Of a DNA stretch of 64,000 nt, positions 925 to 20,700 are shown piece after piece (within the stretch, counting starts at the first letter, position 1; each line of letters starts with the position of its first letter). The position numbers and the translations under genes were made by a program. Under the pieces are notes generated by a model, which did not search any database, had not been told where the DNA came from, and saw only the letters and a list, made by a program, of their open reading frames with translations. Source of the stretch: Pseudomonas sp. gcc21 (lineage in GTDB: Bacteria; Pseudomonadota; Gammaproteobacteria; Pseudomonadales; Pseudomonadaceae); contig NZ_CP051625.1 in NCBI RefSeq assembly GCF_012844345.1, positions 62,001-126,000 on the forward strand, in the 5' to 3' direction.

Positions 925-1866
925 TTAGTACGTGGCATTCAGGCGTTGCAGAAGATGATCACCTGCCGTAATCGGTGGGTAGCGCACCGGATTGCCGGCG
1001 TCGGTACAGGTGTCTATACATTCGATATGGGCGTTCTTGTTGGGTTGACAGAAAAAGGCGATCGAGTAGCGGTGGCGGTGCATCGCGGCCTTGGGCACGT
1101 TTACCCGATGAGGAGTTGAACAGAACACATGGTTGGTCCAGCGGTGCATCAAGTCGCCGGTGTTGATCACCACAGTGCCCGGAATCGGTGTCGCCTGTAC
1201 CCATTCACCCTGGCGAGTACACACTTCCAAGCCGCCGGCGTCGTCCTGAAACAGCAAAGTAATACTGCCGTAATCGGTATGCGCACCGGCGCGGCTCTCG
1301 CCCTGCTCGGCGGCAAAATCCTGCGGCAAAGGTGGATAGTGCAGCAGCCGCAGGGTGTGATGGCGAAGGTCGTGCGCATTGACAAAAAAATCGTCCGGTT
1401 GGTCAAGTGCCACCGCGAAAGCTTCCAGAATGCGGTCTGCAGTGGTGATGCAATCTGCCAGAAAGGTCTCGACGTGCGCACGGAATTCAGGCTGATCCGC
1501 AGGCCAGAGATTACGCGCCGCGCTGGCATCGCGATCCTCCGGACCGGCGTTGAACGCTTCTTTCAGGTCGCCCGGCCTGCTCGGGTCCAGACGCTCGCGG
1601 CGCACGCCCACGTAGCCTCTGTTGCTCTGTGCGTTTTGCCAGGCCACTGATTGTTTGATCTCGTCTGGCAGGGAAAAGAAGTTCTTGGATGCCTGAAAAG
1701 CCTTATCAACACTGGTCTGGGGCATGCCGCAGTTGGCCAGGTAGAAGAATCCCCACTGGCTGCTGGCGTCGCGCATCTGTGCGGCAACCTGTTGCCTGGC
1801 TGTCGGGTCGCCCTGGATAAAAGGGCCAAAGTCGATGATCGGAATGGATAGTGCCTGCTCGCTCAT
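925..1866 (-). CDS. 2-oxoglutarate/Fe(II) oxygenase, isopenicillin N synthase family (copy 1)
   Basis: A 313-residue protein with the N-terminal DIOX_N region (IPIIDFGPF from residue 8) and a C-terminal double-stranded beta-helix core. The iron ligands are visible as H196-x-D198 (AHTDYGS) and H253 (STPHRV), and the 2-oxoglutarate-binding R-x-S is R266-Y-S268. The C-terminus ends in the family-typical HLLQRLNATY. The family hydroxylates or oxidatively demethylates small molecules; thymine-7-hydroxylase and plant hormone oxygenases belong to it. The gene is divergent from an 8-oxoguanine-deaminase-like gene and directly upstream of an NMT1-type transporter protein, so a nucleobase-like substrate is inferred. 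It is one of three such oxygenases in the window. Confidence 0.88.
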   Translation of the reverse strand: MSEQALSIPIIDFGPFIQGDPTARQQVAAQMRDASSQWGFFYLANCGMPQTSVDKAFQASKNFFSLPDEIKQSVAWQNAQSNRGYVGVRRERLDPSRPGDLKEAFNAGPEDRDASAARNLWPADQPEFRAHVETFLADCITTADRILEAFAVALDQPDDFFVNAHDLRHHTLRLLHYPPLPQDFAAEQGESRAGAHTDYGSITLLFQDDAGGLEVCTRQGEWVQATPIPGTVVINTGDLMHRWTNHVFCSTPHRVNVPKAAMHRHRYSIAFFCQPNKNAHIECIDTCTDAGNPVRYPPITAGDHLLQRLNATY

Positions 1867-2272
1867 AGATGTATCTCCGGGATGCTGGATGGGCCATGTG
1901 CCCTCGCGAATCTCGCTGCGAAAAAGGTCCCTGGTTTAGCCCCGGTTGTGCTACTGAAACGGGCGGCTCATAACCTGACCGGACAATCAGGAATTTGATA
2001 GCAAAGCCTGTGCCATGCCTGAAGGCGGGCGATTCATGAGCTTTTTGCGCCATGCGGAAGCGTTTCTGCACCGACCTGGGCCGCGGTTCCGTCAACGGCA
2101 CCAAATAATGGCCCTTCCCGCTGGCTAAAGGCCGGCCCCGGATTTGCATTCGGACTTGCGCAGAGCGGAGCCCTGCGAGGTTATCGAACTCTCTGTTTTG
2201 AGCTCACTGTTTGAACACGCTGTTGAACAAACTGTTTATTGAATGACGCCGAACTGGCCAAGGAAATAGATT
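1867..2272. promoter_or_regulatory. Divergent intergenic region between oxygenase and amidohydrolase
   Basis: These 406 bases separate two divergent genes and must hold both promoters. No convincing gene is seen; open frames across it lack a ribosome site and a family match. It contains a CCTGA-N8-TCAGG inverted repeat at 1974-1991 and three spaced copies of a CTGTT(n)GAACA-like word at 2207-2243, close to the start of the downstream amidohydrolase. Confidence 0.5.
2207..2243. repeat. Three tandem CTGTT-GAACA-like words upstream of amidohydrolase
   Basis: CTGTTTGAACA (2207-2217), CTGTTGAACAA (2220-2230) and the weaker CTGTTTATTGAA (2232-2243) follow each other at 12-13 bp spacing. They end 30 bp before the ATG at 2273. 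The position and regular spacing suggest a regulator-binding region, but no regulator can be named from sequence. Confidence 0.4.
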
Positions 2273-3634
2273 ATGAGCAAGACCCTGTTACTGAAGAACG
2301 CCACGCTGGTGGCAACCATGGATGATCGAAAGCGCGAGATTGCCGGCGGTTCTGTATTCATCCGCGGCAGCCGCATCGAGGCGGTCGGTCCGGCCGCAGA
2401 GCTGCCCGATACGGCCGATCGGGTGATCGATCTGACCGGCCACGTGGTCATACCGGGGCTGATCAATACCCACCACCACATGTTCCAGTCGCTCACCCGG
2501 GTGCTGCCGGCGGCGCAAGATGCCGAGCTGTTCGACTGGCTCAGCGCGCTGTTCCCGGTATGGGCGCGGCTCACGCCGGAAATGGCCCGTGCCGCGACCC
2601 GCACTGCTGTGGCCGAACTGATGCTCAGCGGCTGCACCACGGCAATGGACCAGGCCTATCTGTACGTCAACGGCATCCAGCTCGAGGACAGCATCCAAGC
2701 TGCCCGCGAGATGGGCATCCGCTTCCACGCCGGGCGCGGTGCCATAAGCCTGGGGCAGAGCAAAGGCGGTCTGCCACCGGACTCGTTGGTGGAAGCCGAC
2801 GAGAATGCGATTCTCAGCGACATGCAACGCGTGATTGAAGCGCACAACGATGCAGCGCCCGACGCCATGACCCGCGTGGTCGTTGCGCCTTCCTCGCCTT
2901 TCACCGTGACCCGCGAGCTGATGATCGAGACCGGCAAACTGGCCCGCGCCTACGGTGTCGGCATGCATACCCATACCGCGGAAAATCGCAAGGATGTGGA
3001 TTTCTGCCGGGAGGTGTACAACATGACCCCCACAGAATATGCCGAGGAAGTCGGCTGGGTGGGTGAAAACACCTGGCACGCCCACTGCGTCAAGCTGGAC
3101 GATGCCGGCATCGCCCTGTTTGCGCGCACCGGCACAGGGGTTGCGCATTGTCCGTGCTCCAATATGCGGCTCGCGTCCGGCCTGGCGCCGATCAGGAAAA
3201 TGCGTGATGCGGGAGTGAAGGTTGGTCTTGGGGTGGACGGTAGCGCCTCGAATGACAGCAACAACCTGCTCGATGAGGCGCGCCAGGCGATGCTTTCGGC
3301 CCGCGTGCGGGATGAAAATCCCGGTGCGATGACCGCCCGCGAAGCCCTCGAACTGGCGACCCGGGGCGGGGCAGAGGTGCTCGGCCGAAGCGACGCCCTG
3401 GGCCGTATCCAGGCGGGTTATTGCGCCGATATCGTGGCGTTTCGCACTGACGATATCGCCATGGCGGGCGCGCAGACCGATCCGCTGGCCGCATTGGTAT
3501 TCTGCACACCGCCACGGGTGGCCTACAGCATTATCAATGGCCGGCTGGTAGTGGAGCGGGGTGGATTGCTGACCGGGGAGTTGCCCACATTGATCGAAGA
3601 TCACAACCGCCTGGCAGCCGAGCTGATTGGTTGA
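2273..3634 (+). CDS. 8-oxoguanine deaminase-like amidohydrolase
   Basis: A 453-residue amidohydrolase. Metal-binding motifs are NTHHHMFQSLTR (H67-x-H69), the barrel histidines in GMHTHTAEN and WHAHCVKLDD, and the catalytic Asp in LGVDGSASND. The NTHHHMFQ/LTR plus VPAAQ/LPAAQDAELF segment resembles the Pseudomonas 8-oxoguanine deaminase subgroup, which converts 8-oxoguanine to urate with release of ammonia. That product would feed the urate hydroxylase encoded at 18199. It is transcribed divergently from oxygenase copy 1. The start is the ATG at 2273; the upstream AAGGAAAT is a plausible ribosome site. Atrazine-chlorohydrolase-like or other purine-ring deaminases remain possible. Confidence 0.82.
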   Translation: MSKTLLLKNATLVATMDDRKREIAGGSVFIRGSRIEAVGPAAELPDTADRVIDLTGHVVIPGLINTHHHMFQSLTRVLPAAQDAELFDWLSALFPVWARLTPEMARAATRTAVAELMLSGCTTAMDQAYLYVNGIQLEDSIQAAREMGIRFHAGRGAISLGQSKGGLPPDSLVEADENAILSDMQRVIEAHNDAAPDAMTRVVVAPSSPFTVTRELMIETGKLARAYGVGMHTHTAENRKDVDFCREVYNMTPTEYAEEVGWVGENTWHAHCVKLDDAGIALFARTGTGVAHCPCSNMRLASGLAPIRKMRDAGVKVGLGVDGSASNDSNNLLDEARQAMLSARVRDENPGAMTAREALELATRGGAEVLGRSDALGRIQAGYCADIVAFRTDDIAMAGAQTDPLAALVFCTPPRVAYSIINGRLVVERGGLLTGELPTLIEDHNRLAAELIG

Positions 3635-3679
3635 GCGGGCTGGCCCTTGTAGCGCCAGAGCGCGACAAGGGCTCGCAGG

Positions 3680-4630
3680 CTATGCGCCAGGCTGGCGGTG
3701 GGCGTAGGTGGCGTTGAGTCTGGCCGCGAGGTACTCACCGCAGGTGACCGGCGGGTACTTCGGCTCTGCATTGGGCACAACATCGCGGGGATCAACGATC
3801 GCGTCGGGGTCCACTTCCAGAAAGAAAGCGATGGAGTAGCGTTCACGCTTCGGCGGACGTACCCGATGCGGAGTGGACACATAGATGTCATTGCTCCAGC
3901 GCATCAGGCAGTCGCCGATATTGCACACATAGGCACCGGGGACATAGGGCGCTTCGATCCACTCGTTCTGACGGGTCAGTACCTGCAAACCGGCGACCTC
4001 GTCGGTGGCTAACAGGGTGATGTTGCCATAGTCCGTGTGGGCACCTGCTCCGGCATCCTCGCGCGCCTCCTTGTGGGCGCTGGCCGGGTAGCGCAGCAGG
4101 CGCAGCGTGGCGACGGGCTCGGCCAGATGTTCTTCAAAGTGCGTTTCAGCCAGCCCCAGATCGATACTGAAACCTTTATGCAGCAGTCGGCCCAGTTCGA
4201 GGCAATCGTTGAAATACGCCAGCATCCGATCCCGCCACTGTGCAAGCTCCGGCCAGAAGTTGACGCCGCGAAAGGGTTTACCGGCCACCACGTCGGGGTG
4301 ATCGGCAGCGAACTCTGTGCCGATATTGAAGGCCTCTTTCATGTCGGCCCCGGCCCGCGGATTCAGCCGCTCATCGGCCATCGCCACGTAACCACGATTG
4401 TGCGGGGACAGCTTGATGGACATGGCTTGCTTGTCTCGAAGCGGGAGTTCGAACAGCTGTCGGGCATCGCCGAACGCACGCTGGATGCGCTCTGCAGGTA
4501 TCCCATGATCCACAACATAAAAGAAACCGACTTCACGGCAGGCGCGGCCCAGTTCGGCGGCAACCCTGGCACGGTCGGCGGGATCAGGGCTATTCAGGCC
4601 TGCGACAGAAATAATGGGTAGCGATTGCAT
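3680..4630 (-). CDS. 2-oxoglutarate/Fe(II) oxygenase, isopenicillin N synthase family (copy 2)
   Basis: A 316-residue paralogue of copy 1. The iron ligands are H198-x-D200 (GAHTDYGN) and H255 (STPHRV), and the 2-oxoglutarate motif is R264-Y-S266. Its ATG at 4630 follows the stop codon of the amidohydrolase at 4634 by only 3 bp, so translation of the two is probably coupled and they act on the same compound or successive intermediates. Order on the minus strand is rutR-like regulator, amidohydrolase, oxygenase. It shares WSND and VSTPHRVRPPKRERYSIAFF-type segments with copy 1, closer than to copy 3. The substrate is not known. Confidence 0.88.
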   Translation of the reverse strand: MQSLPIISVAGLNSPDPADRARVAAELGRACREVGFFYVVDHGIPAERIQRAFGDARQLFELPLRDKQAMSIKLSPHNRGYVAMADERLNPRAGADMKEAFNIGTEFAADHPDVVAGKPFRGVNFWPELAQWRDRMLAYFNDCLELGRLLHKGFSIDLGLAETHFEEHLAEPVATLRLLRYPASAHKEAREDAGAGAHTDYGNITLLATDEVAGLQVLTRQNEWIEAPYVPGAYVCNIGDCLMRWSNDIYVSTPHRVRPPKRERYSIAFFLEVDPDAIVDPRDVVPNAEPKYPPVTCGEYLAARLNATYAHRQPGA

Positions 4631-4633
4631 CGA

Positions 4634-5986
4634 TTAGTCCCCGAGCATGGTTGATTTGAGATGTGATATGTCGCGGCAACGCTCAAACAGCGCCAGGCCG
4701 TGCGCCTGCGCCTCAAGGATGACTTCGCGTTCATTCAGGCGCGTCGTCTGCCCATTGGCGATCAGTTGGCGACCATCGACCCAGACGCTGGCGACGTTCT
4801 GACTGCCTGCAGCAAACACCAGGTTCCACAGCACATTGCCGCCCTGGGCATCGACCTGCGCCGGGGTCATGTTGGGCATGCCCAGATCAAGCAGCAGTAG
4901 GTCGGCACATTTGCCGACTTCCAGCGAGCCGATGTCGCGGTCCAGGCCCAGCGCGCGGGCACCGTTGATGGTGGCCATGCGTAGCATCTGACTGGCTGGC
5001 AGCAAGGTGGCTTCCAGCCGGGTGGCTTTCTGGATCAGCGAGGCGAACTTCATTTCCTCGAACAGGCTCAGGCTGTTGTTGCATACCGGGCCGTCAGTCC
5101 CAAGCCCGACCGTGATACCGGCGGCCAGCATCTCGGGCACGCGGGCAACACCGCTGGCCAATTTGGCGTTGCTGACAGGGCAGTGGGCGATGGCGGTGCC
5201 GGTATCGGCAATACGTTTGATTTCATCGTCATTCAGCCACACACAATGGGCCAGCAGGGTGCGCTCGCCGAGGATGCCGTAGTGATCCAGCTGCGCGATC
5301 GAGCGGCGGCCGAAGTGTCGCTCGACCGCCTGGTCTTCCTCGCGTTGCTCGCAGGCATGGGTGTGGATGCCGACGCCATAATCGCGCTGTGCTTGTAGCG
5401 CCTGGGTGTAGGCATCGGCGGTGCAGTAGAAGAGGTGTTCGAGCCCCATCCATACCTGAATGCGGCCGTTCTGGCTGCCGTGGTGGCTGTGGATCAGGGT
5501 GTGATTTTCCGCCAGGCTGGCGAAGAAATCCTTGCCTGGCGCATCGGCTACATAGGGAGCGAGGTTCACCCGCAGCCCCACCTCTTCAGCGGCCTCGGCG
5601 CAGCGGTGCATGAAGCGGTACATGTCCATCACGCAGGTGGTGCCGCTTTTCAGGGCTTCCAGATAACACAGCCGCGCGGAATGGAATGCGTACTCTTCGG
5701 TCAGGGCACGATGCTCAAGCTGGTAGTAGGGCAGCCATTCCATCAGCTGCATGTTTTCCGTGACGCCACGCATCAGGCTCGAATGCGAGTGGCAGTCAAT
5801 CAGCCCGGGCAGCAACGCGTGCCCGCTGGCGTCGATCACCGGTATGTCGGGCGGCACCTGTATCGCTTCGGTGGTTCCTAGTGAGACGATCCGGCCTTGC
5901 TGCACAATCAGCGTGCCGCATGGGATGACCCTGTCGGCCGGGTCGACGGTAAAGATGGCTACATTGGTGATCGCAAAACTGTTCAT
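4634..5986 (-). CDS. Amidohydrolase, SAH/MTA deaminase or TrzN-like
   Basis: A 450-residue amidohydrolase with metal ligands H66-x-H68 (DCHSHSS), a barrel histidine in GIHTHACEQ, the LLAHCVWLND histidine and the catalytic Asp in GLGTDGPVCNN. HCPVSNAKLASG and the TDGP motif are typical of the S-adenosylhomocysteine/methylthioadenosine deaminase and triazine hydrolase branch, which removes amino groups from purine-like rings. It is downstream of the RutR-like gene (30 bp gap) and upstream of oxygenase copy 2 (3 bp gap), so the three likely form an operon. DCHSHSSLMRG replaces the NTHHH of its two relatives in the window, so its substrate probably differs. Confidence 0.8.
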   Translation of the reverse strand: MNSFAITNVAIFTVDPADRVIPCGTLIVQQGRIVSLGTTEAIQVPPDIPVIDASGHALLPGLIDCHSHSSLMRGVTENMQLMEWLPYYQLEHRALTEEYAFHSARLCYLEALKSGTTCVMDMYRFMHRCAEAAEEVGLRVNLAPYVADAPGKDFFASLAENHTLIHSHHGSQNGRIQVWMGLEHLFYCTADAYTQALQAQRDYGVGIHTHACEQREEDQAVERHFGRRSIAQLDHYGILGERTLLAHCVWLNDDEIKRIADTGTAIAHCPVSNAKLASGVARVPEMLAAGITVGLGTDGPVCNNSLSLFEEMKFASLIQKATRLEATLLPASQMLRMATINGARALGLDRDIGSLEVGKCADLLLLDLGMPNMTPAQVDAQGGNVLWNLVFAAGSQNVASVWVDGRQLIANGQTTRLNEREVILEAQAHGLALFERCRDISHLKSTMLGD

Positions 5987-6016: not shown

Positions 6017-6679
6017 TCAAGTCTTGGGTGGCTCCAGGCCGCAGCCACGCAGGATCACCTCGGTGAGAAAGTCGGCCGCGTGGTCGAAATCGAGCTTTTC
6101 GTATTCGGCCTTGTTTTCCACCATCAGGATCTGTATCTGGAAGTCGGCGTAGTGTTGGGTGGATGACCAGATCAGGAAGATCAGTTGCACCGGATCGACC
6201 TTGGCCATCCGGCCTTCATCAACCCATTGCTGAATGACGGTGGCTCGCCCGCGGACCCAGTCGCGCATGGTGCCGCGCAGATGGTCCATCAGAAACGGCG
6301 CGCCCTGGATGATCTCCAGTGCAAACAGACGTGAAGCCAATGGATGGGTGCGTGACATCTCGACTTTGGTGCGAATGAAGGTAGCCAGTGCGGTGGCGGG
6401 GTCGTCCTCCGGCGACACCGAGCTGAATACGGCGTTCCAGCGCGTCATGATGTCGTCGAACATGGCGCTGTAGATTTCGTTCTTGTTGCTGAAGTAATAC
6501 AGCACATTGGATTTCGGCAGCTCTGCCCGTTCGGCAATGTTCTGAATCGTTGCACCACGGAAGCCGTGTTGGGCAAATTCCTTCTCCGCGGCCGCCAGAA
6601 TGTTCCCGCGGTTACGTTCGCGTATGCGTCCGGGACGATAGGTTTTTGTTCGAGTTCGAGTTCGGCTCTGAGTGCTCAT
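6017..6679 (-). CDS. rutR: TetR-family regulator, RutR-like
   Basis: A 220-residue TetR repressor. The N-terminal helix-turn-helix covers about residues 20-66 (ILAAAEKEFAQHGFRGATI ... SNVLYYFSNKNEIY). The C-terminal domain matches RutR in several diagnostic stretches: SRTHPLASRLFALEI, GAPFLMDHLRG and, near residue 160, LIFLIWSSTQHYADFQ. E. coli RutR binds uracil or thymine and controls pyrimidine and purine catabolism genes through a TTGACCA-N2-TGGTCAA operator; three similar sites lie in this window (11130, 11205, 19470). The gene is in the minus-strand run that encodes the transporter, a deaminase and an oxygenase. The effector here may be a different nucleobase. Assignment to RutR is from sequence resemblance plus operators. 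Confidence 0.85.
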   Translation of the reverse strand: MSTQSRTRTRTKTYRPGRIRERNRGNILAAAEKEFAQHGFRGATIQNIAERAELPKSNVLYYFSNKNEIYSAMFDDIMTRWNAVFSSVSPEDDPATALATFIRTKVEMSRTHPLASRLFALEIIQGAPFLMDHLRGTMRDWVRGRATVIQQWVDEGRMAKVDPVQLIFLIWSSTQHYADFQIQILMVENKAEYEKLDFDHAADFLTEVILRGCGLEPPKT

Positions 6680-6739: not shown

Positions 6740-7492
6740 TCAAAAGTGCAGCTTGATCAGGGCGCTGGTGGCGCTTTCGGTGTCCATCACGGCATCACCC
6801 AGGCCGTACTTGTTGTTCCAGTAGGAATACTCGATCCCTGCATACAGCACGCGCGGGCTGCCGAAGTAGTTGCCGATATCCAGCTTCAGCTGCGGGTTGA
6901 AGTGGAAATCCGACTTGTGGTCGTCTGCGGCGCTGGACCAGTCAATGTAGCCGTCGAACAGGATGCGGGTAGCGCCGAATTCCATGGGCGCGCCCCAGAC
7001 GACAGTCAGCTGGTAGTCATTGTCTGTTTCGCTGTTGTTGACGTGGTAGACCCTGGTGCCAAAGTACTGGAAGCCGGGAACGTTCCAGTCAAGACCCATG
7101 CCGAGCATGTAGTTGTTGACGTTGGTGCCGCCGCCCATTTCGTACTGACCTGACAGGGTCACGTCCTTGATCAGGCCGGCGCTCAGATCCTTGCCGGTCA
7201 GCCAGCTGAGGCTGATGTTGGGCGCAAACTCGCCATACAGGTCATCGGAATCCGCGTCCTTGCCGTGGCCCTGATTGCGGTCCACGAAGAGAAAGGTGCT
7301 GCCCCAGTTGTGGCCGGTCGCGTTCTCGAAAGTGAAGTAGGTGTCGGTGCGTTGCTGCCGGCCGAACGCCTCATAGTCATCACTGTAGAGGATGGAAATG
7401 CTCGAGTCGGAGAAGAACTTCTCGGCTTGAGCAGCAGGGACGAAGGAGGCTGCGACGCAGACTGCCAGCAACGTTTTCTTCATTACTTTCAT
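6740..7492 (-). CDS. tsx: Tsx-like nucleoside-specific outer-membrane channel
   Basis: About 250 residues with a signal peptide (cut after AAQA, before EKFFSDSSISILY) and a short beta-barrel ending in LIKLHF, the terminal aromatic residue typical of outer-membrane proteins. Alternating aromatic strands, WGSTFLFVDRNQ, GLDWNVPGFQYF and IDWSSAADDHKSDFHF, match the nucleoside-specific channel family, which lets nucleosides and related compounds cross the outer membrane. AAGG at 7501-7504 sits 8 bases before the ATG at 7492 and too close to the ATG at 7498, so 7492 is preferred. It lies 52 bp below the last permease of the BMP-type ABC operon, placing outer- and inner-membrane uptake steps in one transcript. 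Confidence 0.85.
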   Translation of the reverse strand: MKVMKKTLLAVCVAASFVPAAQAEKFFSDSSISILYSDDYEAFGRQQRTDTYFTFENATGHNWGSTFLFVDRNQGHGKDADSDDLYGEFAPNISLSWLTGKDLSAGLIKDVTLSGQYEMGGGTNVNNYMLGMGLDWNVPGFQYFGTRVYHVNNSETDNDYQLTVVWGAPMEFGATRILFDGYIDWSSAADDHKSDFHFNPQLKLDIGNYFGSPRVLYAGIEYSYWNNKYGLGDAVMDTESATSALIKLHF

Positions 7493-7544
7493 GGTCATAT
7501 CCTTGATGTGGTTATTTCTCTGGTTGGCATAGGGGTACTACAGC

Positions 7545-8471
7545 TCACTTGCTTGGCCGATAAGGCTGGCCGATGGAAAAAGGGGTGTTCAGGCGCGTGC
7601 GCGCCGGGTTGCACGACAACAGCACCAGTACCGCGATGGTCACGACGTAGGGCAGCGTCGCCAGCAGCTCGGTGGAGCTGCGCCAGCCGAGACCCTGCAA
7701 GACCAGATGCAGAATGCTCGCGGCGCCGAACAGGTAGGCTCCGAGTAATACGCGCTCGGGTTTCCAGGTGGCGAATACCACCAGGGCCAGGGCGATCCAG
7801 CCGCGGCCCGACGTCATGTTTTCAGTCCACATGGGCGTGTAGGCCAGCGATAGATAAGCGCCCGCCAGGCCGGCCATGCCGCCACCGAAGGCGACTGCCA
7901 GGTATCGCACCGCGAGCACGCGCATGCCATTGGCGTTGGCGGCTTCAGGTGATTCACCCACGGCGCGCACGATCAGGCCGCCCCGGGTGTAGCGCAGGAA
8001 CACATAGACCAGCACGAACAGGACCAGCGAGAGGTAAACCAGCAGGTCCTGGCGAAACAGCACTGGCCCCAGCACAGGAATGTCGGACAGATAGGGAATG
8101 GCGATCTTGGGGAAGCCGGAGATGGACTGGCCGACGTAGCTGCTGCCGATGAAGGCGCTCAAGCCGGTGCCGAAGATCGTCAGCGCCAGACCGGCGGCGT
8201 ACTGGTTGGCCGCCAGCGTGACTGCCATGAGCGCGAAGAGCATCGACATCACAATCCCGGCAAGGATGGCCACCAGCACCCCGACGGCCAAACTGCCGCT
8301 GGTGACCGCGGCGATAAAGCCCATCACCGCACCCATCAGCATCATGCCTTCCTGCCCGAGGTTGAGTACGCCGGAGCGTTCGCACACCAGCTCGCCGAGG
8401 GCCACCAGCAGCAGCGGCGTGCCGGCGATGATGGTCGCAGCCAGAATGTTGGTGATCAGTAGCGTATCCAT
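7545..8471 (-). CDS. BMP-type ABC transporter permease (NupQ/YufQ-like)
   Basis: A hydrophobic protein of 308 residues with about eight to nine membrane segments, starting MDTLLITNILAATIIAGTP. The segment LGELVCERSGVLNLGQEGMM is the signature of nucleoside/branched-chain-type permeases of BMP importers. An AGGAGG ribosome site lies directly upstream of ATG 8471, and the preceding permease stops 1 bp earlier, so this start is preferred over one 72 bases upstream. It forms the inner-membrane channel with the permease at 8473-9561 and is energised by the ATPase at 9548-11104. Substrate is probably a nucleoside or nucleobase, by family and neighbours. Confidence 0.9.
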   Translation of the reverse strand: MDTLLITNILAATIIAGTPLLLVALGELVCERSGVLNLGQEGMMLMGAVMGFIAAVTSGSLAVGVLVAILAGIVMSMLFALMAVTLAANQYAAGLALTIFGTGLSAFIGSSYVGQSISGFPKIAIPYLSDIPVLGPVLFRQDLLVYLSLVLFVLVYVFLRYTRGGLIVRAVGESPEAANANGMRVLAVRYLAVAFGGGMAGLAGAYLSLAYTPMWTENMTSGRGWIALALVVFATWKPERVLLGAYLFGAASILHLVLQGLGWRSSTELLATLPYVVTIAVLVLLSCNPARTRLNTPFSIGQPYRPSK

Positions 8472-8472
8472 G

Positions 8473-9561
8473 TCAGGCCTCCTGCCCGATGGCCACACTC
8501 GACTGCGGACGACGCAGGCGCAGGCGGTAATGGATGAAGGCATCGCAGGTCAGCAGATAGAACAGCAGCAGCCCCTGGAACAGACCGGTGATGGCCTTGG
8601 GCATGTTCATGGCGATCTGCAGCATTTCGCCGCCCATGAAGGTGAGGGCAAGCAGGGCGCTGGCGAGGATGATGCCGACCGCCTGCATACGGCCCAGGAA
8701 GACCACGATGATGGCCGTGTAGCCGTAACCCGGGGATACCTGCGGGATCAGCTGGCGGATAGGGCCGGATACTTCCGAGGCCCCGGCCAGACCAGCGAGA
8801 CCGCCTGCAATCAGAAAAGCCAGCCAGATCAGCCGTTTCTCACCGAAGCCTGCGAAGGCCGCGGCGCGGTTGTCCTGCCCCAGTACGTTGAGCTGGAAGC
8901 CGACGAAGGTCCGGGTGAACAGCACGCCGACAGCGACAGCGGCAAACAGCGCGAACAGCAGGCCGATGTGCAGGCGGGTCCCGTCGATCAGCTGTGGCAG
9001 CAGCGCAGAGGCGGCGAACATCTCGGACTGCGGGAATCCGAAGCCCATCGGATCGCGCAGCGGACCATGCACTGCATAGAGCAGCAGGTTCAGCGCGATG
9101 TAGTTGAGCATGATGGTGGTCAGGATTTCATTGCAGTGAAACTGCGTTTTAAGCACTGCCGCCAGCCAGGCCCACAGCGCGCCCGCGACAATGCCGGCAC
9201 CCAACACCACGGGCAGGACCCAGAAGCCGGTGGCGTCGCTCAAGTTGAGTGCAGCCACCGACGCCCAGAGCGCGCCCATCAGGAACTGGCCTTCAGCCCC
9301 GATATTCCAGACGCGGGTGCGGTAGCACACCGTCAGTCCCGCTGCGCAGAGCAACAGTGGCGCCATTTTCAGTCCGAGTTCGGCCCAGCCGTGGGTGTCG
9401 CTCAGAGGGACCAGAAAGAAGAAACCGAGGGCGGCCAGCGGGTCCTTACCCAGCGCCCAGAACAACACCAGACCGGTGAGGACAGTGAGCAGCAGCGCCA
9501 GTACCGGTGAGGCCCACTGCATCAAACGCGAATCGACCGCGCGCCGTTCAAGCGACAGCAT
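8473..9561 (-). CDS. BMP-type ABC transporter permease (NupP/YufP-like)
   Basis: A 362-residue permease with about nine to ten hydrophobic segments. Family marks include VWNIGAEGQFLMGALWAS and EILTTIMLNYIALNLLLY. Its ATG at 9561 overlaps the 3' end of the ATPase gene by 14 bp and its stop is 1 bp from the next permease start, so the three are translationally coupled. Together they form a two-permease importer of the nucleoside/purine class (BMP binding proteins, e.g. Bacillus NupNOPQ). No binding-protein gene is in this operon; the candidate is at 25264-26331. Confidence 0.9.
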   Translation of the reverse strand: MLSLERRAVDSRLMQWASPVLALLLTVLTGLVLFWALGKDPLAALGFFFLVPLSDTHGWAELGLKMAPLLLCAAGLTVCYRTRVWNIGAEGQFLMGALWASVAALNLSDATGFWVLPVVLGAGIVAGALWAWLAAVLKTQFHCNEILTTIMLNYIALNLLLYAVHGPLRDPMGFGFPQSEMFAASALLPQLIDGTRLHIGLLFALFAAVAVGVLFTRTFVGFQLNVLGQDNRAAAFAGFGEKRLIWLAFLIAGGLAGLAGASEVSGPIRQLIPQVSPGYGYTAIIVVFLGRMQAVGIILASALLALTFMGGEMLQIAMNMPKAITGLFQGLLLFYLLTCDAFIHYRLRLRRPQSSVAIGQEA

Positions 9562-11104
9562 GGGTCACCTCCGCTGCCGACGGAGCGGCGTGCGAGCGCG
9601 GAAATTCTCCGGCCATCCATTGCCCCAGCTGTTCAATGCCCAGCTCGCTAGTGCGTACCAGTGGCGACAGGCGTCCGCTGCATAGGGCGCCCAGGCGGTC
9701 ACACAGCTGATACAGCTCGTCCAGATCTTCGGAAATCAGTAATACAGCTGCGCCCTGATCGCGCAGCTGTATGAGGGCTTCGTGGATGGCTACTGCCGAG
9801 CCGACGTCCACGCCCCAGGTCGGGTGCGAGGCAACCAGCAGGCGCGGCTGCTGCAAGGCTTCGCGACCGATGATGAATTTTTGCAGGTTGCCGCCGGACA
9901 GGCTGGCCGCCGTGCTATCAATGCTTGCGCTGCGCACGTTGAAGCGCTCACGTATACGCGCGGCGTATTCGCGTACCTTGCCGCTGCGCACCCAGTCGCG
10001 CTTGACCAGTCCGTGGCCATAGGCTGTGAGCAATGTATTGGAGACCAGTGACATGCCCGGCACGGCGCCACGCCCGAGGCGCTCTTCCGGCACGATGGCC
10101 ATGCCGGCCTCGCGGCGTTGGGCCGGGCCGGCTGGGCCTATATCCTCACCATCGATCAGCAGGCAGCCCGCTGCGCTGCGGCGCTCGCCGGACAATGCAC
10201 GGAGCAGTTCATCCTGACCGTTGCCCGCGACGCCGGCGATACCGACGATCTCGCCGGCGCGCAGCTCCATGTCAATCGCATCCAGGCTGGAGCCAAACGG
10301 GTCCGTAGTGGGGTGACTGAGCTGGCGCATGCTCAGCAGTACGCCTCCGGGTTGGGAGGGCGTGGCCTGCGCAGAGAGCGGCGTGTCGCTGCCGACCATC
10401 ATCCGAGCGATATCATCCACCGATACCTCGGAAGGCACGCAGGACCCGGTTACCTTGCCGCCGCGCATGACGGTAGCCTTGTGGCAGAGGTCGCGGACTT
10501 CCTGCAATTTGTGGCTGATAAACAGAATGCTGCAGCCCTCCGCCGACAGCTGACGCAGGGTACGGAACAGAATCTGTACTTCCTGTGGAGTCAGAACCGA
10601 GGTGGGCTCATCCAGGATGAGCAGCGCGCTCTGCTGGATCAGGCAGCGCACGATTTCAACGCGCTGACGCTCGCCGATCGACAGATTGGACACATGCCGC
10701 CTGGGATCCAGCGCCATGCCGTAGCGCGTCGATACATCCCTGATCCGTGCCTCCAGCTCGCGGCTATTCCTCGCTTCGCTTGCTGGCAGACTTAATGCAA
10801 TGTTTTCCGCAACGGTCAGGGCTTCAAACAGGGAAAAGTGCTGAAACACCATGCCCACGCCGATATCACGTGCGTGACGTGGCCCCTGGATAGAGAGGGG
10901 CGTACCGTTCCAGATGACGCTTCCTTCATCCGGCTGAACGACACCGTAGATGACCTTCATCAAGGTGCTCTTGCCTGCGCCGTTCTCCCCGAGCAAAGCA
11001 TGTATCTCGCCCGCGGCTACCTTGAGGTGAACGCCGTCGTTCGCCCGGCAGCCGGGGTACTGTTTAACGATGTTCACTAATTCCAGACGCGCGGTACTCG
11101 CCAT
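9548..11104 (-). CDS. BMP-type ABC transporter ATPase, two fused nucleotide-binding domains
   Basis: About 518 residues with two ABC domains in tandem. Domain 1 has a full Walker A (GENGAGKST), the signature LSIGERQRVEI and Walker B LLILDEPTSV. Domain 2 has the degenerate Walker A (GVAGNGQDELL) and LSGGNLQKFIIGRE usual for ribose/nucleoside-type ATPases. An upstream in-frame GTG at 11110 is possible, but ATG 11104 has AAGGG at a better distance. It is the first gene of the minus-strand operon, and two RutR-like sites lie in the 214 bp between it and xdhA. It powers uptake through the two permeases that follow. Confidence 0.9.
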   Translation of the reverse strand: MASTARLELVNIVKQYPGCRANDGVHLKVAAGEIHALLGENGAGKSTLMKVIYGVVQPDEGSVIWNGTPLSIQGPRHARDIGVGMVFQHFSLFEALTVAENIALSLPASEARNSRELEARIRDVSTRYGMALDPRRHVSNLSIGERQRVEIVRCLIQQSALLILDEPTSVLTPQEVQILFRTLRQLSAEGCSILFISHKLQEVRDLCHKATVMRGGKVTGSCVPSEVSVDDIARMMVGSDTPLSAQATPSQPGGVLLSMRQLSHPTTDPFGSSLDAIDMELRAGEIVGIAGVAGNGQDELLRALSGERRSAAGCLLIDGEDIGPAGPAQRREAGMAIVPEERLGRGAVPGMSLVSNTLLTAYGHGLVKRDWVRSGKVREYAARIRERFNVRSASIDSTAASLSGGNLQKFIIGREALQQPRLLVASHPTWGVDVGSAVAIHEALIQLRDQGAAVLLISEDLDELYQLCDRLGALCSGRLSPLVRTSELGIEQLGQWMAGEFPRSHAAPSAAEVTHAVA

Positions 11105-11129
11105 CTTCACACCCTTAGCCTCAGATTAA

Positions 11130-11318: not shown

Positions 11319-12776
11319 GTGATCGAATTTTATCTGAACGGGCGTCCAGAACTCCTTGAAGGAGTTGACCCAAATTTGAGCATTCTGGAATGGCTACGCA
11401 CCGAAAAGCGGCTCACAGGCACCAAAGAGGGCTGCGCCTCGGGTGACTGCGGCGCTTGCACGGTACTGCTCGGCGTGCCGGGCGAAGATGGCGAAACGCA
11501 CTACCAGAGCATTAATAGCTGCATTGCTCTGATTGGCAGCCTGCACGGCCGCCATCTGGTCACGGTAGATGCGCTGCGCGATGAGCCAGCGCACCCGGTG
11601 CAAACGGCTATGGTCGAATGTCACGGCTCGCAGTGCGGCTTCTGTACGCCGGGCTTCATCATGTCGATGGTCGGGCTGCACCGCGAGGTGACAGTACATG
11701 GGCGTGATTGTGATCAGGAGCGCCTGATTGAAGCGCTCGCCGGTAATCTGTGTCGCTGTACCGGTTACCGGCCCATTATCGAAGCGGGGCGTCAGTCCAT
11801 TATTGATGAATCGGCGGCCTGGGAAGGCGACGCGCTCTTTGTCAATGCTGCACAGACGCCTGCCCCCGCGCAGTCGGTGTCCATGAGCCATGCATCGGGC
11901 CGCACTTATCACGCGCCGGTATCGCTGGCGGAACTGCGGCAGCTGCTGGCGGACAATCCCGCAGCGCGTCTGATGGCCGGCACCACTGATCTGGCGTTGG
12001 AAATCACCCAGCAGCTTCTCGATGTGCCGCATCTGGTGTCAGTGGAGCGGGTGCCGGAGCTACAACGTCTGAGCAGAACCGAATCGGTCCTTGAGATCGG
12101 GGCGGCGGTGACCTACACCCAGGCGGATGATCTCTTGGTAGGCGACTGGCCGACATTCGGCCCGCTGCTGGATCGCCTGGCCTCCCTGCAGATACGCAAC
12201 CGCGGCACGCTCGGCGGCAACATCGCCAATGCCTCGCCGATTGGCGACATGCCGCCCCCGTTGCTGGCGCTGGGCGCTGAACTGGTGCTGGACAGCGCCG
12301 AGGGCGAACGCCGCGTGGCGCTGGATGATTTCTTTCTGAGGTATCGCAAAACCGCGCTGCGCCCGCAGGAATTCATTCGCAGCGTGCGTATCCCGACGGC
12401 GACGCAGGACGATCGGCTGTTCATCTACAAGGTCTCCAAGCGGCTGGATGACGATATCTCCGCCGTGCTCGGGGCTTTCTGGTTCCGCTTTGCGGGCAAT
12501 GAGATCCTCGACTGCCGGCTGGCCTATGGCGGCATGGCTGCAACGCCCAAGCGAGCGCAGGCCGCCGAAGCCGCGCTGCGCGGTCAGGCCTTTGATGAAG
12601 CTGCCGTGAGCGCCGCGATCAACGCGCTGGCGCAGGACTTCACGCCGCTATCCGATGCGCGCGCCTCCGCCAGTTATCGGAGCCAGATCGCCGGCAATCT
12701 GCTGCGTCGCGCGCTACTCGAACACCGCGCCGGCGTTAATGCCCAACCTCTGCTTTCGGTGACCCATCATGCGTAG
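11319..12776 (+). CDS. xdhA: Xanthine dehydrogenase small subunit (2Fe-2S and FAD domains)
   Basis: 485 residues. The N-terminal ferredoxin-like cluster uses C39, C44, C47 and C68; the second cluster uses C106, C109, C145 and C147 (NLCRCTGYRP). A FAD-binding domain follows from about residue 190 (LMAGTTDLALEITQ, RNRGTLGGNIANASPIGD). The subunit passes electrons from the molybdenum site in XdhB to NAD+ while hypoxanthine and xanthine are oxidised to urate. The start is the GTG at 11319 with GGAG 8 bases upstream. The gene overlaps xdhB by 8 bp and opens a seven-gene operon. Likely control is by the RutR-like sites in the divergent promoter. Confidence 0.95.
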   Translation: MIEFYLNGRPELLEGVDPNLSILEWLRTEKRLTGTKEGCASGDCGACTVLLGVPGEDGETHYQSINSCIALIGSLHGRHLVTVDALRDEPAHPVQTAMVECHGSQCGFCTPGFIMSMVGLHREVTVHGRDCDQERLIEALAGNLCRCTGYRPIIEAGRQSIIDESAAWEGDALFVNAAQTPAPAQSVSMSHASGRTYHAPVSLAELRQLLADNPAARLMAGTTDLALEITQQLLDVPHLVSVERVPELQRLSRTESVLEIGAAVTYTQADDLLVGDWPTFGPLLDRLASLQIRNRGTLGGNIANASPIGDMPPPLLALGAELVLDSAEGERRVALDDFFLRYRKTALRPQEFIRSVRIPTATQDDRLFIYKVSKRLDDDISAVLGAFWFRFAGNEILDCRLAYGGMAATPKRAQAAEAALRGQAFDEAAVSAAINALAQDFTPLSDARASASYRSQIAGNLLRRALLEHRAGVNAQPLLSVTHHA

Positions 12777-15123
12777 ACTCCCAAGCGAAACCGCACATCA
12801 GCCAGCGGCGGCGACCGGTCTGGCAGGGCAGAGCACCCTGCACGACAGCGCCTGGAAACACGTGCGCGGCGAGGCCCGCTACATTGATGACCTGCCCGAG
12901 CCGGAGGGCCTTCTGCACGCAGCTGTAGGCCATAGCCAGCATGCGCATGCGCGCATTGTGTCGATGGATCTGAGTGCGGTGCGCAGTTATCCGGGCGTGG
13001 TTGCGGTGGTGACAGTTGACGACGTACCGGGCCATACCGACATAGGTCCGGTGTTCCCCGGTGATCCGGTGCTGGCTGGCGAACTGGTCGAACATATCGG
13101 CCAGCCGATCTTTGCGGTCGCCGCCACCAGCCACATCGCAGCGCGCAAAGCGGCGCGCCTGGCCAAGGTCGAATACGAACTGCTCGAACCGGTGCTGACA
13201 ATCGACAAGGCGCTTGAACAGGAATTTTTCGTCCGTCCCACCAATACCCATTTGCGCGGCGATCCTGATCAGGCCCTCGCGGCAGCGCCGCACCGGTTGC
13301 AAGGCCAGCTGGAGGTTGGCGGGCAGGAGCATTTCTATCTGGAAGGGCAGGCCTGCCTGGTTGAGCCAACCGAAGATGGCGGCATGTTCGTGCATACCTC
13401 CAGCCAGCATCCCTCCGAAGTGCAGAAGCTGGTCGCCGAAGTGCTGGGGCTGCCGATTCACGCGGTGCAGGCTGAGGTGCGGCGAATGGGCGGCGGTTTC
13501 GGTGGCAAGGAGACCCAGGCTGCGGCGCTCGCCTGCGTCGCCTCGCTGCTGGCGCATGTCACCGGCAAGGCGATCAAATATCGCCTGTCGCGCGCCGATG
13601 ACATGGTGCAGACCGGCAAGCGCCATGATTTCTTCAACACCTTCGATCTGGGTTTCGATGATCAGGGCGTGATACGCGGCGCCGATATCATGGTTGCCGG
13701 GCGCTGTGGTTATTCACCGGATCTGTCCGATGCCATTGTCGATCGCGCCATGTTCCACGCGGACAACGCCTATTTTCTCGATCAGGCCCGGGTGACCGGC
13801 CACCGCTGCAAGACCCATACAGTGTCGAATACCGCGTTTCGCGGTTTTGGCGGGCCGCAGGGGATGATGATCATCGAGAAGGCTATGGATGACATCGCCC
13901 GCTATCTGCAGCTCGATCCGCTGGAAGTGCGCAAACGCAACCTGTATGGCGAAGGCCGGGACATCACCCATTACGGTCAGCAGATCGAGCAGCACGTGCT
14001 CGCCGAGCTGATCGGTCAGCTGGAAACCAGCTCGGATTATCAGGCGCGACGTGAGCAGATCCGTGCGTTCAATTCGCAGAGCTCGGTGCTTAAACGCGGC
14101 CTGGCACTCACGCCGGTCAAGTTCGGCATTTCCTTCACCGCCACGCACCTGAACCAGGCCGGCGCGCTGGTGCACATCTACACTGACGGTAGTATCCACA
14201 TCAACCACGGCGGCACCGAAATGGGCCAGGGGCTCTATATCAAGATTGCCCAGGTGGTTGCCTCGGCGTTTCAAGTGGATGTGAGCTGCGTTGCCGTTTC
14301 GGCCACGCGCACCGACAAGGTGCCCAACACCTCGCCGACCGCGGCATCCTCGGGCAGCGATCTGAATGGGATGGCGGCGCTGGATGCCTGCGAGAAGATC
14401 AAGGCGCGACTGATTGAATTCGCCGCGGAGCACTGGTCATGCAAGACCGGTGATGTGCGTTTCGAGAACAACGAAGTGGTCATGGCCGAGCAGCGCGTCA
14501 GCTGGGGCACCTTCGTGCGCACCGCCTACATGAACCGAATCTCGCTGTCCTCGTCCGGGTTCTACTCGACGCCAAAGATTCACTTCGATTACGCCAAGGG
14601 GCACGGCCATCCATTCCTGTACTACGCCAACGGCGCCGCGTGCTCCGAGGTGCTTGTCGACACTCTGACCGGGGAATACAAGGTCACCCGCGCGGATATC
14701 CTGCATGACGTGGGGCAATCGCTCAATCCGGCGATTGATATCGGGCAGATCGAGGGCGGCTTCATTCAGTGCATGGGCTGGCTGACCACAGAGGAGCTGG
14801 TGTACAGCCCGGAAGGGCGGCTGATGACGACCGGGCCCGCGACCTACAAGATCCCCGCGATTTCCGATACGCCCGCCGATTTTCGCGTGCAGTTGCTGGA
14901 GAACAGCCCGAACACCGAGGCGACCATCTTCCGCTCCAAAGCGGTGGGTGAACCGCCTTTCATGTTGGGTATATCGGTCTGGTGCGCGCTGCGCGATGCG
15001 GTGGCCAGCCTGACGGATTACCGTTTCAGTCCGCCACTGGATGCACCGGCCACGCCCGAGCGCATGCTCGGCGCGGTGAACGCGGCGCAGAGCTGGCTGG
15101 CCGCGCAAGAGGAGAACCGGTAA
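12769..15123 (+). CDS. xdhB: Xanthine dehydrogenase large subunit (molybdopterin-binding)
   Basis: 784 residues of the molybdenum hydroxylase large-subunit family. Seen are the substrate/cofactor motifs RRMGGGFGGKETQ, NTAFRGFGGPQGMM, GGTEMGQGLYIKIAQV and the C-terminal VGEPPFMLG segment with the catalytic glutamate. It holds the Mo-pterin active site that hydroxylates hypoxanthine and xanthine. The ATG overlaps the end of xdhA, and the stop TAATG contains the start of xdhC. Full family length; no frameshift seen. Confidence 0.95.
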   Translation: MRRLPSETAHQPAAATGLAGQSTLHDSAWKHVRGEARYIDDLPEPEGLLHAAVGHSQHAHARIVSMDLSAVRSYPGVVAVVTVDDVPGHTDIGPVFPGDPVLAGELVEHIGQPIFAVAATSHIAARKAARLAKVEYELLEPVLTIDKALEQEFFVRPTNTHLRGDPDQALAAAPHRLQGQLEVGGQEHFYLEGQACLVEPTEDGGMFVHTSSQHPSEVQKLVAEVLGLPIHAVQAEVRRMGGGFGGKETQAAALACVASLLAHVTGKAIKYRLSRADDMVQTGKRHDFFNTFDLGFDDQGVIRGADIMVAGRCGYSPDLSDAIVDRAMFHADNAYFLDQARVTGHRCKTHTVSNTAFRGFGGPQGMMIIEKAMDDIARYLQLDPLEVRKRNLYGEGRDITHYGQQIEQHVLAELIGQLETSSDYQARREQIRAFNSQSSVLKRGLALTPVKFGISFTATHLNQAGALVHIYTDGSIHINHGGTEMGQGLYIKIAQVVASAFQVDVSCVAVSATRTDKVPNTSPTAASSGSDLNGMAALDACEKIKARLIEFAAEHWSCKTGDVRFENNEVVMAEQRVSWGTFVRTAYMNRISLSSSGFYSTPKIHFDYAKGHGHPFLYYANGAACSEVLVDTLTGEYKVTRADILHDVGQSLNPAIDIGQIEGGFIQCMGWLTTEELVYSPEGRLMTTGPATYKIPAISDTPADFRVQLLENSPNTEATIFRSKAVGEPPFMLGISVWCALRDAVASLTDYRFSPPLDAPATPERMLGAVNAAQSWLAAQEENR

Positions 15124-16004
15124 TGGACAAGCGCATGCCCTGGTATCAGGCGGTCGCCGACTGCGAAGCGCGCGGCGAACCCTATGTGCTGGTGACCGTT
15201 CTGGGCGTGGCGGGCTCGGTGCCACGTGAGCCGGCCAGCAAGATGGTCATCACCGCAGAGCACAGTTACGACACCATTGGCGGTGGCCATCTGGAGTTTC
15301 AGATCATGACCCGCGCGCGCGAGCAACTTGCCGCGCGCCGCTATGAAACCCAGCTGCAACACTTCCCGCTGGGCGCGAGCCTTGGCCAGTGTTGTGGCGG
15401 CAGCGTCTCGGTATTGCTCGAGGGTCAGCCCGGGAGCGAGGCGCGGCTGGTGGTATTCGGTGCAGGCCATGTGGGCCGTGCACTGATGACCATCATGGGA
15501 CATTTGCCTTGGCAGGTGGTCTGGGTCGATTCCCGGGCCGACGCTTTTCCCGAGGCGGCGGCATTGTCCGCGAATGTGCGACAGCACCTGACGGACGATC
15601 CGGTGGGTGATGGCCAGGACCTGTGCGCCGGTAGCCATGCGTTGATCCTGACGCACAATCATCAGCTCGATTACGAGCTGTGTCGGGCCTTGCTGGACGC
15701 AGGCAGCGCGACCAGCATCGGCCTGATCGGCTCGCAGACCAAGGCCGAACGCTTCCGGCTGCGGCTGGAACACCGTGGCTATACCGCCGAGCAGATCGCT
15801 TCGATCCGCTGCCCGGTCGGGCGCAGCGATGTGCCCGGCAAGCGGCCAATGGAGGTCGCGGTATCCATTTGCGCAGAACTGCTGTCACTGGCCGCGATCG
15901 ATCAGCCCAAGGCCAGACGCCGTGGCGTCAAGTGGAATGAGCTGAAGGCGTTGCTGCCGGGCGCTGAACATACTTCCCCGAATCAGCCTGTGGAGGCGCA
16001 ATGA
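15123..16004 (+). CDS. xdhC: XdhC, molybdenum cofactor sulfuration/insertion factor
   Basis: 293 residues when started at the ATG at 15123, which overlaps the xdhB stop; longer upstream starts would lie inside xdhB. The N-terminal XdhC/CoxI domain contains VLGVAGSVPREPASKM and the CCGG segment; the C-terminal half is a Rossmann-like domain (VVFGAGHVGRALM and GLIGSQTKAERF). XdhC binds the molybdenum cofactor, helps add the terminal sulfur and delivers it to XdhB. The 3' end overlaps uraD by 4 bp. Confidence 0.93.
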   Translation: MDKRMPWYQAVADCEARGEPYVLVTVLGVAGSVPREPASKMVITAEHSYDTIGGGHLEFQIMTRAREQLAARRYETQLQHFPLGASLGQCCGGSVSVLLEGQPGSEARLVVFGAGHVGRALMTIMGHLPWQVVWVDSRADAFPEAAALSANVRQHLTDDPVGDGQDLCAGSHALILTHNHQLDYELCRALLDAGSATSIGLIGSQTKAERFRLRLEHRGYTAEQIASIRCPVGRSDVPGKRPMEVAVSICAELLSLAAIDQPKARRRGVKWNELKALLPGAEHTSPNQPVEAQ

Positions 16005-16501
16005 CCCTTGAAGAGCTCAACCAGCTGCCTGCCGACGCAGCGCTGACGTTGTTTCGTGATTGCTGTGCGGCGGATGCCTGGGCCAGACCCATGGTGGAGA
16101 GGCGGCCCTTTCACTCCATGGATGCACTGCACGACGCGTCGCGCGCGCTCTGGCCGACCTTGACCGAAGCCGACTGGCTGGCGGCGTTCGAGGCGCACCC
16201 CAAGATTGGCGACATCAAGAGCCTGCGCAGCAGATATGCCAGTACCGAAGCGCTGGCGAGTGGCGAACAGTCCGGCGCCCAGGCCGCTCCGGAAGAGGTT
16301 CTGCAGCGCCTGAAGGAGGGCAACGAGGCCTACGAAAACAAGTTCGGCTTCATCTTCATCGTCTGCGCCACGGGCAAGAGTGCCCAGGAAATGCTCACGC
16401 TGCTCGAAGCCCGTCTGCCCAATTGCCGGGAAACGGAAATCGACATCGCCGGTGCCGAGCAGGCCAAAATCACCCATATCCGTTTGGACAAACTGCTATG
16501 A
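16001..16501 (+). CDS. uraD: OHCU decarboxylase
   Basis: 166 residues of the 2-oxo-4-hydroxy-4-carboxy-5-ureidoimidazoline decarboxylase family. ERRPFHSMDALHDASRALW carries the active-site His region and FEAHPKIGDIKSLR is a family hallmark; KFGFIFIVCATGKSAQEML forms the C-terminal conserved helix. The enzyme makes S-allantoin from OHCU, the last spontaneous-prone step after urate oxidation. It overlaps xdhC and uraH by 4 bp each (ATGA junctions), indicating translational coupling. Confidence 0.93.
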   Translation: MTLEELNQLPADAALTLFRDCCAADAWARPMVERRPFHSMDALHDASRALWPTLTEADWLAAFEAHPKIGDIKSLRSRYASTEALASGEQSGAQAAPEEVLQRLKEGNEAYENKFGFIFIVCATGKSAQEMLTLLEARLPNCRETEIDIAGAEQAKITHIRLDKLL

Positions 16502-20661: not shown

Positions 20662-20681
20662 TACACCCACTATCCCTGCAA

Positions 20682-20700
20682 GGGCTCGCGTAGCGGGCCC
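20682..20700 (+). other. Intercistronic hairpin between binding-protein and ATPase genes
   Basis: GGGCTCGC (20682-20689) and GCGGGCCC (20693-20700) pair with one G-T wobble over a 3-base loop, followed by GTATTTT. Such hairpins after binding-protein genes usually protect that message and lower expression of the downstream ATPase and permease. Confidence 0.5.

Follow-up and report, generated by a model that had tools for sequence, protein, structure and literature searches.

The window analyzed here, a 64 kb stretch (positions 62001-126000, G000:C1) of the 3.98 Mb single-contig genome (G000) of a marine bacterium, contains three oxygenase-deaminase gene pairs inside a purine-breakdown locus. 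One of them, pair C, is a widespread module in which the gene for an Fe(II)/2-oxoglutarate (2OG) oxygenase, oxC, and that for an amidohydrolase, amC, each follow a xanthine riboswitch. On balance, we favor the view that pair C breaks down an imported amino-purine derivative in two steps, combining deamination with an oxidation that is most likely an N-demethylation; it probably belongs to an uncharacterized pathway for unusual purines. The finding is real and non-random, and its core, pair C, is an open reaction made testable. In all counts below, "genus" stands for Halopseudomonas, a name inferred because the best relative of amC in a named genome lies in 'Pseudomonas profundi' (91% identity) and those that follow are mainly from Halopseudomonas.

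All six open reading frames (ORFs) that a sequence-only reading had assigned to the three pairs are present and uninterrupted, and the pairs are confirmed as real and intact. Its description of the oxygenases as intact also stands, each having both PF14226 and PF03171 and keeping the HxD...H and RxS residues, and the geometry is likewise as it described: pair A is divergent (406 bp between the ORFs), pair B lies on one strand with a 3 bp gap, and pair C is divergent. The HxH, H-x-H-xx-E, and HCPxSN motifs are kept in all three amidohydrolases, the metal motifs of amC reading NTHHH, HSHLLE, HCPTSN, and GVDGSAS. By NCBIfam, amA is an 8-oxoguanine deaminase (NF006055; 654.6 bits versus a cut-off of 532) that keeps the metal-binding motifs, its catalysis being predicted. 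amC scores 614.3 bits with PRK12393/NF009059 (cut-off 543) and remains below the 8-oxoguanine deaminase equivalog cut-off (410.8 versus 532), and amB stays below the curated cut-offs of all 25 families shown (best 353.1 versus 522). The members of the three pairs are as follows:

22367..23383, minus strand: oxC, Fe(II)/2OG oxygenase of the riboswitch-linked clade (pair C; P0005), start corrected; from Pfam, residues, and tree
23474..23521, minus strand: xanthine (NMT1, RF03054) riboswitch before oxC; 41.2 bits, gathering score 36
23783..23832, plus strand: xanthine (NMT1, RF03054) riboswitch before amC; 46.3 bits, gathering score 36
23851..25206, plus strand: amC, PRK12393/NF009059 amidohydrolase (pair C; P0006); NCBIfam above cut-off
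925..1866, minus strand: oxA, Fe(II)/2OG oxygenase of the lineage on the thymine-7-hydroxylase side (pair A; P0001); from Pfam, residues, and tree
2273..3634, plus strand: amA, 8-oxoguanine deaminase (pair A; P0002); NF006055 above cut-off
3680..4630, minus strand: oxB, Fe(II)/2OG oxygenase (pair B; P0003); best Protein Data Bank (PDB) match 6jyv (PA4191)
4634..5986, minus strand: amB, TRZ/ATZ-type amidohydrolase (pair B); no equivalog cut-off reached

Riboswitches and recurrence of pair C

The two RF03054 elements, one per pair C gene, are the only Rfam matches at the gathering score in the window; the sequence-only reading makes no mention of them. Members of RF03054 bind xanthine or urate and act as an OFF switch, as shown for other members of the class (Yu & Breaker 2020; PMC7373994). 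The start of oxC is most likely the ATG at 23383, which GGAG precedes at 23390-23393, and not at the listed TTG at 23518, because the latter falls inside the riboswitch. Directly 5' of the oxC Shine-Dalgarno sequence, CTACTC (23394-23399, minus strand) can pair with GAGTAG of the aptamer. The same hexamer precedes the Shine-Dalgarno sequence in 10 of 69 oxC leaders versus 155 of 4100 random stretches, but because nine of the ten carriers are Pseudomonas/Halopseudomonas kin, no general CTACTC pairing platform is claimed. The leader folds of oxC and amC were not clearly stronger than those of shuffled sequences (z of -1.07 and 0.09).

Our own covariance model, R1, was built from 37 sequences, and the 35 of them that came out of the 80 amC loci described below match it by construction. 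Neither the RF03054/Rfam search at the gathering score nor R1 gave a match at pairs A and B or at a fourth oxygenase (oxD, see below) in the window and the adjoining locus L006, and R1 likewise found none at L088, L089, and L091, loci of three further genus genomes that contain the pair A/B cluster or what is left of it. A regular-expression riboswitch match in L091 was dropped, as the covariance model did not confirm it.

A scan of genome contigs with amC (P0006) yielded 236 relatives, and the best 80 were kept; they came from Halopseudomonas, Marinobacter, Halomonadaceae, Vibrio, Photobacterium, Marinomonas, Alteromonadaceae, Endozoicomonas, Oceanospirillaceae, and others. Among these 80 loci, oxC is present in 65 and within 2 kb of amC in 36. 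A riboswitch lies upstream of oxC in 64 of the 65, at amC in 67 of the 80 by script (68 with L024, which has a long ORF, judged by eye), and at an NMT1-type substrate-binding protein (SBP) gene in 42. A frequent arrangement runs amC, two back-to-back riboswitches, SBP-ATPase-permease, riboswitch, oxC, and importers related to the one at 19612..22289 of the window sit between amC and oxC in many loci; in Halopseudomonas and Marinobacter the order is mostly amC, two riboswitches, oxC. Fifteen loci were without oxC, and a search of 14 of the corresponding genomes (all except that of L054) found oxC elsewhere in 11, with the motif upstream in all nine of these unlinked copies that were fetched. 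Marinobacter salarius R9SW1 (L026, L041) has two oxC-amC copies and partial xdhB and puuD matches. In Carnimonas nigrificans (G250, L079), oxC-amC forms a riboswitch-led same-strand pair, and no match to xanthine dehydrogenase (XDH) or PuuD was found.

Because the best 80 are the nearest by identity and hence biased, a sample of 398 genomes of the phylum was taken. Eleven carry amC, 14 carry oxC, and six carry both, versus 0.4 expected (Fisher's exact test, 2.4e-7 with our own genome and 3.7e-6 without it, uncorrected for kinship); in four of the six (G000, G469, G586, and G616), the two genes lie within 4 kb of each other. A same-strand R1 match occurs no more than 270 bases from the aligned oxC start in 12 of the 13 sampled oxC genes other than that of the window, two of these matches being weak (E 3e-4 and 6e-4); the remaining locus, L168, has none.

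Exchange of the oxygenase and of the deaminase

A check of 143 genomes of the class for RF03054 under strict filters gave matches in two, one of which was G107, where the xanthine riboswitch precedes a Rieske/VanA_C oxygenase gene. Three genomes that have amC and no oxC (G490, G562, and G441) contain a Rieske gene 55-60% identical to that of G107, and in each it lies in the amC gene run. The run of G490 and G562 is riboswitch, NMT1-SBP, Rieske, ATPase, permease, amC, and that of G441 is SBP, ATPase, permease, amC, Rieske. A Rieske protein search (E 1e-80) covered 80 chosen genomes: 19 sampled genomes with amC or oxC, 15 from other searches, and 46 sampled genomes with neither gene. The Rieske clade was found in five (G107, G434, G441, G490, and G562), all without oxC, and in none of the 46; four of the five have amC in the same gene run, the fifth being G107. 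G434, from another family of the order (L116, L117; G434:C1:80001-112000), carries on one strand two NMT1-type SBP ORFs, an oxA-like gene, a Rieske gene, amC, oxA, and a second Rieske gene. Overall, six of the 11 sampled amC genomes have oxC, four have the Rieske gene, none has both, and one has neither. The best solved relatives of the G107 Rieske protein are SxtDIOX (105 bits) and SxtT (104), followed by the methylxanthine demethylases NdmA (101) and NdmB (89).

The deaminase varies as well. An ORF for a CDA-fold deaminase is found in 15 of the 80 amC loci, following amC instead of adjoining oxC in three, and lies within about 1.5 kb of oxC in five of the eight sampled oxC genomes without amC; the bounds of this ORF are unsure in GC-rich loci. 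The oxygenase is replaced by one of an unrelated class, and the deaminase, less firmly, is replaced too. On our reading, deamination and oxidation are two steps, each of which different classes of enzyme carry out, usually under one metabolite sensor.

The reaction of pair C

The sequence-only reading had proposed that a non-canonical nucleobase is oxidized and deaminated to xanthine or urate. For pair C this is the best reading, given that both genes have xanthine riboswitches, that the pair recurs in many genera, and that an unrelated Rieske oxygenase takes the position of oxC in the amC gene run. In such a unit, amC would remove the exocyclic amine of an imported aminopurine and oxC would oxidize the base, oxidative N-demethylation being most likely and ring hydroxylation next; one example route would lead from methylguanine to methylxanthine and on to xanthine. 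The product would join the xanthine/urate pool of the neighboring XDH, HiuH, and PuuD. Acting via the riboswitch of each gene, free xanthine or urate would shut both genes off. The parts that we infer are the substrate, the order of the steps, the demethylation, and the action of these two riboswitch copies. The features of the locus outside the three pairs are the following:

6017..6679, minus strand: RutR-like TetR regulator; 194 bits, under the cut-off of 368
6740..7498, minus strand: Tsx-like nucleoside channel; PF03502 above cut-off
7545..11110, minus strand: ABC importer (two permeases, ATPase) of the sugar/nucleoside/B6 kind; under equivalog cut-offs
11319..16004, plus strand: xdhABC, XDH and accessory protein; equivalogs above cut-off
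16060..19404, plus strand: hiuH, guaD (guanine deaminase), and puuD-type urate oxidase; profile matches
19612..22289, plus strand: NMT1/SsuA-type ABC importer (SBP, ATPase, permease); profile matches
25264..26361, minus strand: Bmp/PnrA-type substrate-binding protein; Pfam

The puuD-type urate oxidase has a sub-threshold C-terminal cytochrome c match, and the guanine deaminase (16839-18218), within the xdh gene run, is a fourth protein of the amidohydrolase class.

N-demethylation is suggested by the kinship of the Rieske replacement with NdmA/B, by the precedent of MgdH, a 2OG oxygenase that N-demethylates methylguanidine (PMC12508155), and by the aptamer, which rejects xanthine or urate methylated at N1, N3, or N7 (PMC7373994), so that the riboswitch would respond to the finished, demethylated product only. 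MgdH/MgdL (PMC12508155) and pair C both place a 2OG oxygenase in riboswitch-controlled catabolism of a nitrogen compound, but the partner there is a lyase and the substrate guanidine, whereas in pair C the partner is a deaminase and the substrate, on our reading, a purine. A narrower proposal, which we put forward tentatively, is that of a xanthine-riboswitch-controlled pathway for methylated guanine-type bases in which both steps are interchangeable across bacteria (amidohydrolase or CDA-fold enzyme; 2OG or Rieske oxygenase) and the riboswitch would sense only the demethylated product.

Several observations weigh against a two-step unit of this kind. XDH and GuaD already handle ordinary purines, and because XDH is present in 35 of the 36 oxC-amC genomes and guanine deaminase in 24 of the 80 loci, it is unproved that such a unit is needed. 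amC is missing from eight of the 14 sampled oxC genomes, and the sampled amC genome G307 carries neither oxC nor the Rieske oxygenase. No riboswitch lies at amC in L064, L085, and L087, whose genomes are without oxC, nor in L068, L080, and L083, though in these oxC occurs elsewhere in the genome; two of the four Rieske-amC runs (G441 and G434) are likewise without a riboswitch match, and for G434 the search tables record a single internal stop in each of two matches, amC and the first Rieske gene. Among the recurrent neighbors, no formaldehyde-handling gene was recognized, only part of the 45 listed families being annotated. The best PDB match of amC, 2paj (363 bits), which we take to be an isoxanthopterin deaminase, would fit a pterin as well. 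At the 32 positions that separate 80 amC from 22 amA sequences, 2paj matches amC at 16 and amA at three, and it differs from amC at, e.g., His123, His127, Trp139, and His209 (P0006 numbering).

The kinship with 2paj, presumably an isoxanthopterin deaminase, also bears on a rather unlikely alternative: oxC (or oxA) would hydroxylate the ring of guanine or a pterin, and the amidohydrolase would deaminate the oxo-product, guanine thus passing through 8-oxoguanine to urate in a molybdenum-free bypass of XDH. It would suit the assignment of amA to the 8-oxoguanine deaminases by a curated cut-off, as well as the oxC-amC pair of Carnimonas with no XDH or PuuD match, and the riboswitch-linked dioxygenases are compared in PMC7373994 with HpxDE of hypoxanthine/xanthine oxidation. 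However, genomes that keep XDH in 35 of 36 cases have little need for a bypass, and in Carnimonas, with no PuuD match, urate would be a dead end unless there is another uricase (none was searched for). On the same count, oxC was rejected as a general replacement for XDH.

Part of pair C was already in print. The gene types listed in PMC7373994 downstream of the xanthine-I (NMT1) riboswitch, the same riboswitch as at pair C, include both members of pair C (isopenicillin-N-synthase-type dioxygenases and PRK12393 amidohydrolases) as well as tauA/NMT1 transporters, Rieske (hcaE), tsx, and tadA, and the functions of the linked dioxygenases are called unestablished there. Pair C is therefore a known association whose reaction is unassigned in that paper, the available part of which lists gene types and describes no two-step unit, no enzyme exchange, and neither pair A nor pair B. 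The earlier statement that no description was known may hold for the trio, but not for the association of riboswitch, dioxygenase, and PRK12393 in pair C. Among the open-licence papers listed, seen mostly as titles and abstract openings, we found no assignment of the oxC or amC reaction, no two-step unit, no Rieske exchange beside amC, and no pairs A or B.

Pairs A and B and the oxygenase lineages

The genus set comprised 37 genomes, our own included. oxA (at least 69% identity) is present in 13 and directly divergent from amA in ten of these, among them G156, where the amA piece lies at a contig end; in G152, G155, and G172 another oxB-like gene stands between the two. amA occurs in 19 of the 37, 17 of which have a nearby oxygenase; the other two, G160 and G170, show no oxygenase match at E 1e-30, and in four genomes without oxA (G148, G153, G165, and G175) amA follows oxD and an alpha/beta-hydrolase gene on the same strand. 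amB (at least 77%) followed by oxB was found in the same order in 15 of 15 genus genomes (in G156 by coordinates only), and, in the regions inspected, five less similar amB copies (41-43%) lack an immediately adjacent oxygenase. All three pairs are present in 11 of the 37, oxC being inferred from its identity range. Though amA is often divergent from a 2OG oxygenase, the available part of PMC5270733 names no oxygenase partner for 8-oxoguanine deaminase. Judged by its family assignment, pair A ends in an 8-oxoguanine-type deaminase, with urate as the likely product.

At E 1e-45 or better, oxygenases were found in 50 of the 398 sampled genomes, our own included, with 62 matches, 59 of them outside our own genome. 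The 40 regions fetched covered 41 of the 59 and gave 44 oxygenase entries outside the genus (43 distinct, one gene appearing twice, and two being oxC). An amidohydrolase lies within 1.5 kb in only five of the 44, from three genomes (G434 accounts for three entries, and G431 and G372, where a Bmp gene separates an amA-like gene from oxB, for one each), and a universal rule of oxygenase-amidohydrolase pairing was rejected on this count; for 16 of the 44, at least one of twelve purine/nucleoside genes is found no more than 3 kb away. The recurrence that the sequence-only reading had proposed to look for is thus wide for pair C and, within Halopseudomonas, clear for pair A (10/13) and pair B (15/15), but A and B are rare outside the genus. 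We regard them as related but separate, mainly genus-level additions to a nucleoside-import and purine locus. The idea of a single threefold system is not upheld, as the oxygenases belong to different old lineages (see below), A and B are mainly of the genus, and so few outside entries are paired.

These counts also give some weight to the notion that the genes are neighbors only, the oxygenases and amidohydrolases serving separate steps and lying together as purine/nucleoside genes cluster. For pairs A and B, the low outside pairing relative to the proximity to purine/nucleoside genes, the amA genes of G160 and G170, and the distant amB copies all speak for it. It is nevertheless unlikely, as pair B keeps its adjacency and order in all 15 genus genomes with an amB of at least 77%, and the pair C genes co-occur even when unlinked, oxC being exchanged for a Rieske gene in the amC gene run.

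A cyanuric acid amidohydrolase gene (AtzD equivalog, 463 bits versus 360; L006 7915-9099, minus strand) ends 10.8 kb before the window. With amB itself being TRZ/ATZ-like, pair B might act on s-triazines or related rings instead of purines, but this is improbable: wherever a genus region is sufficiently long, RutR- and Tsx-like genes adjoin amB-oxB, and AtzD was not seen in genus regions, though most did not reach that far.

Two further oxygenases lie outside the window. oxD, the fourth DIOX_N/2OG oxygenase (G000:C1:60163-61098; L006 18051-19004), is 0.9 kb before it; its ORF overlaps that of an alpha/beta-hydrolase (L006 18976-19761), not an amidohydrolase, and both occur together in most genus regions fetched. 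A fifth (L007 9501-10559, in G000:C1:642001-662000) is beside a 315-aa ORF without a Pfam match, at a urea/guanidine carboxylase locus with guanidine-I and -II riboswitches on the strand opposite the oxygenase. By analogy with MgdH/MgdL, this locus is a possible candidate for methylguanidine demethylation.

In the tree, oxA groups with thymine-7-hydroxylase (T7H; 96/89, long branches), oxC stands alone (100/100), and oxB and oxD fall elsewhere; the trio is therefore not a recent duplication. Fungal T7H (5c3p) is the best PDB match of both oxA (222 bits) and oxC (97.6). T7H (PMC4787775) shares with these oxygenases the Pfam fold family, the metal triad, the 2OG residues, and the stacking Phe292, and oxC keeps R190, Y194, H214, D216, H271, R286, S288, and F292 in 68 of 68 sequences. 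Such generic residues alone are no evidence for a nucleobase substrate, because the controls 6jyv and 9ovh keep them too. The base contacts E122 and N294, in contrast, are absent from all 123 oxA, oxB, oxC, and oxD sequences aligned, and T7H identity was rejected on these pocket residues. oxC has Gln at both positions in 68 of 68 and a gap at the N87 position; since Gln replaces both contacts, oxC would read the base edge differently from thymine. The analogy with T7H drawn in the sequence-only reading thus applies to the oxA lineage only, and even there the two base-contacting residues differ. Pyrimidine catabolism, with the oxygenases as T7H equivalents on methylated pyrimidines, is highly improbable despite the PDB matches, the grouping of oxA, and the RutR-like regulator nearby, as E122 and N294 are missing throughout, oxB is closest to 6jyv (PA4191), T7H is a long branch, and the riboswitch ligand and most named neighbors are purine-related.

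If pair C does act as a deaminating and N-demethylating unit, this would make oxC a bacterial N-demethylase of purine bases outside the Rieske class. The replacement of oxC by a Rieske oxygenase in the amC gene run turns the question into a defined missing reaction that is directly assayable, and its answer could show by what route marine bacteria regain the nitrogen of modified purines.

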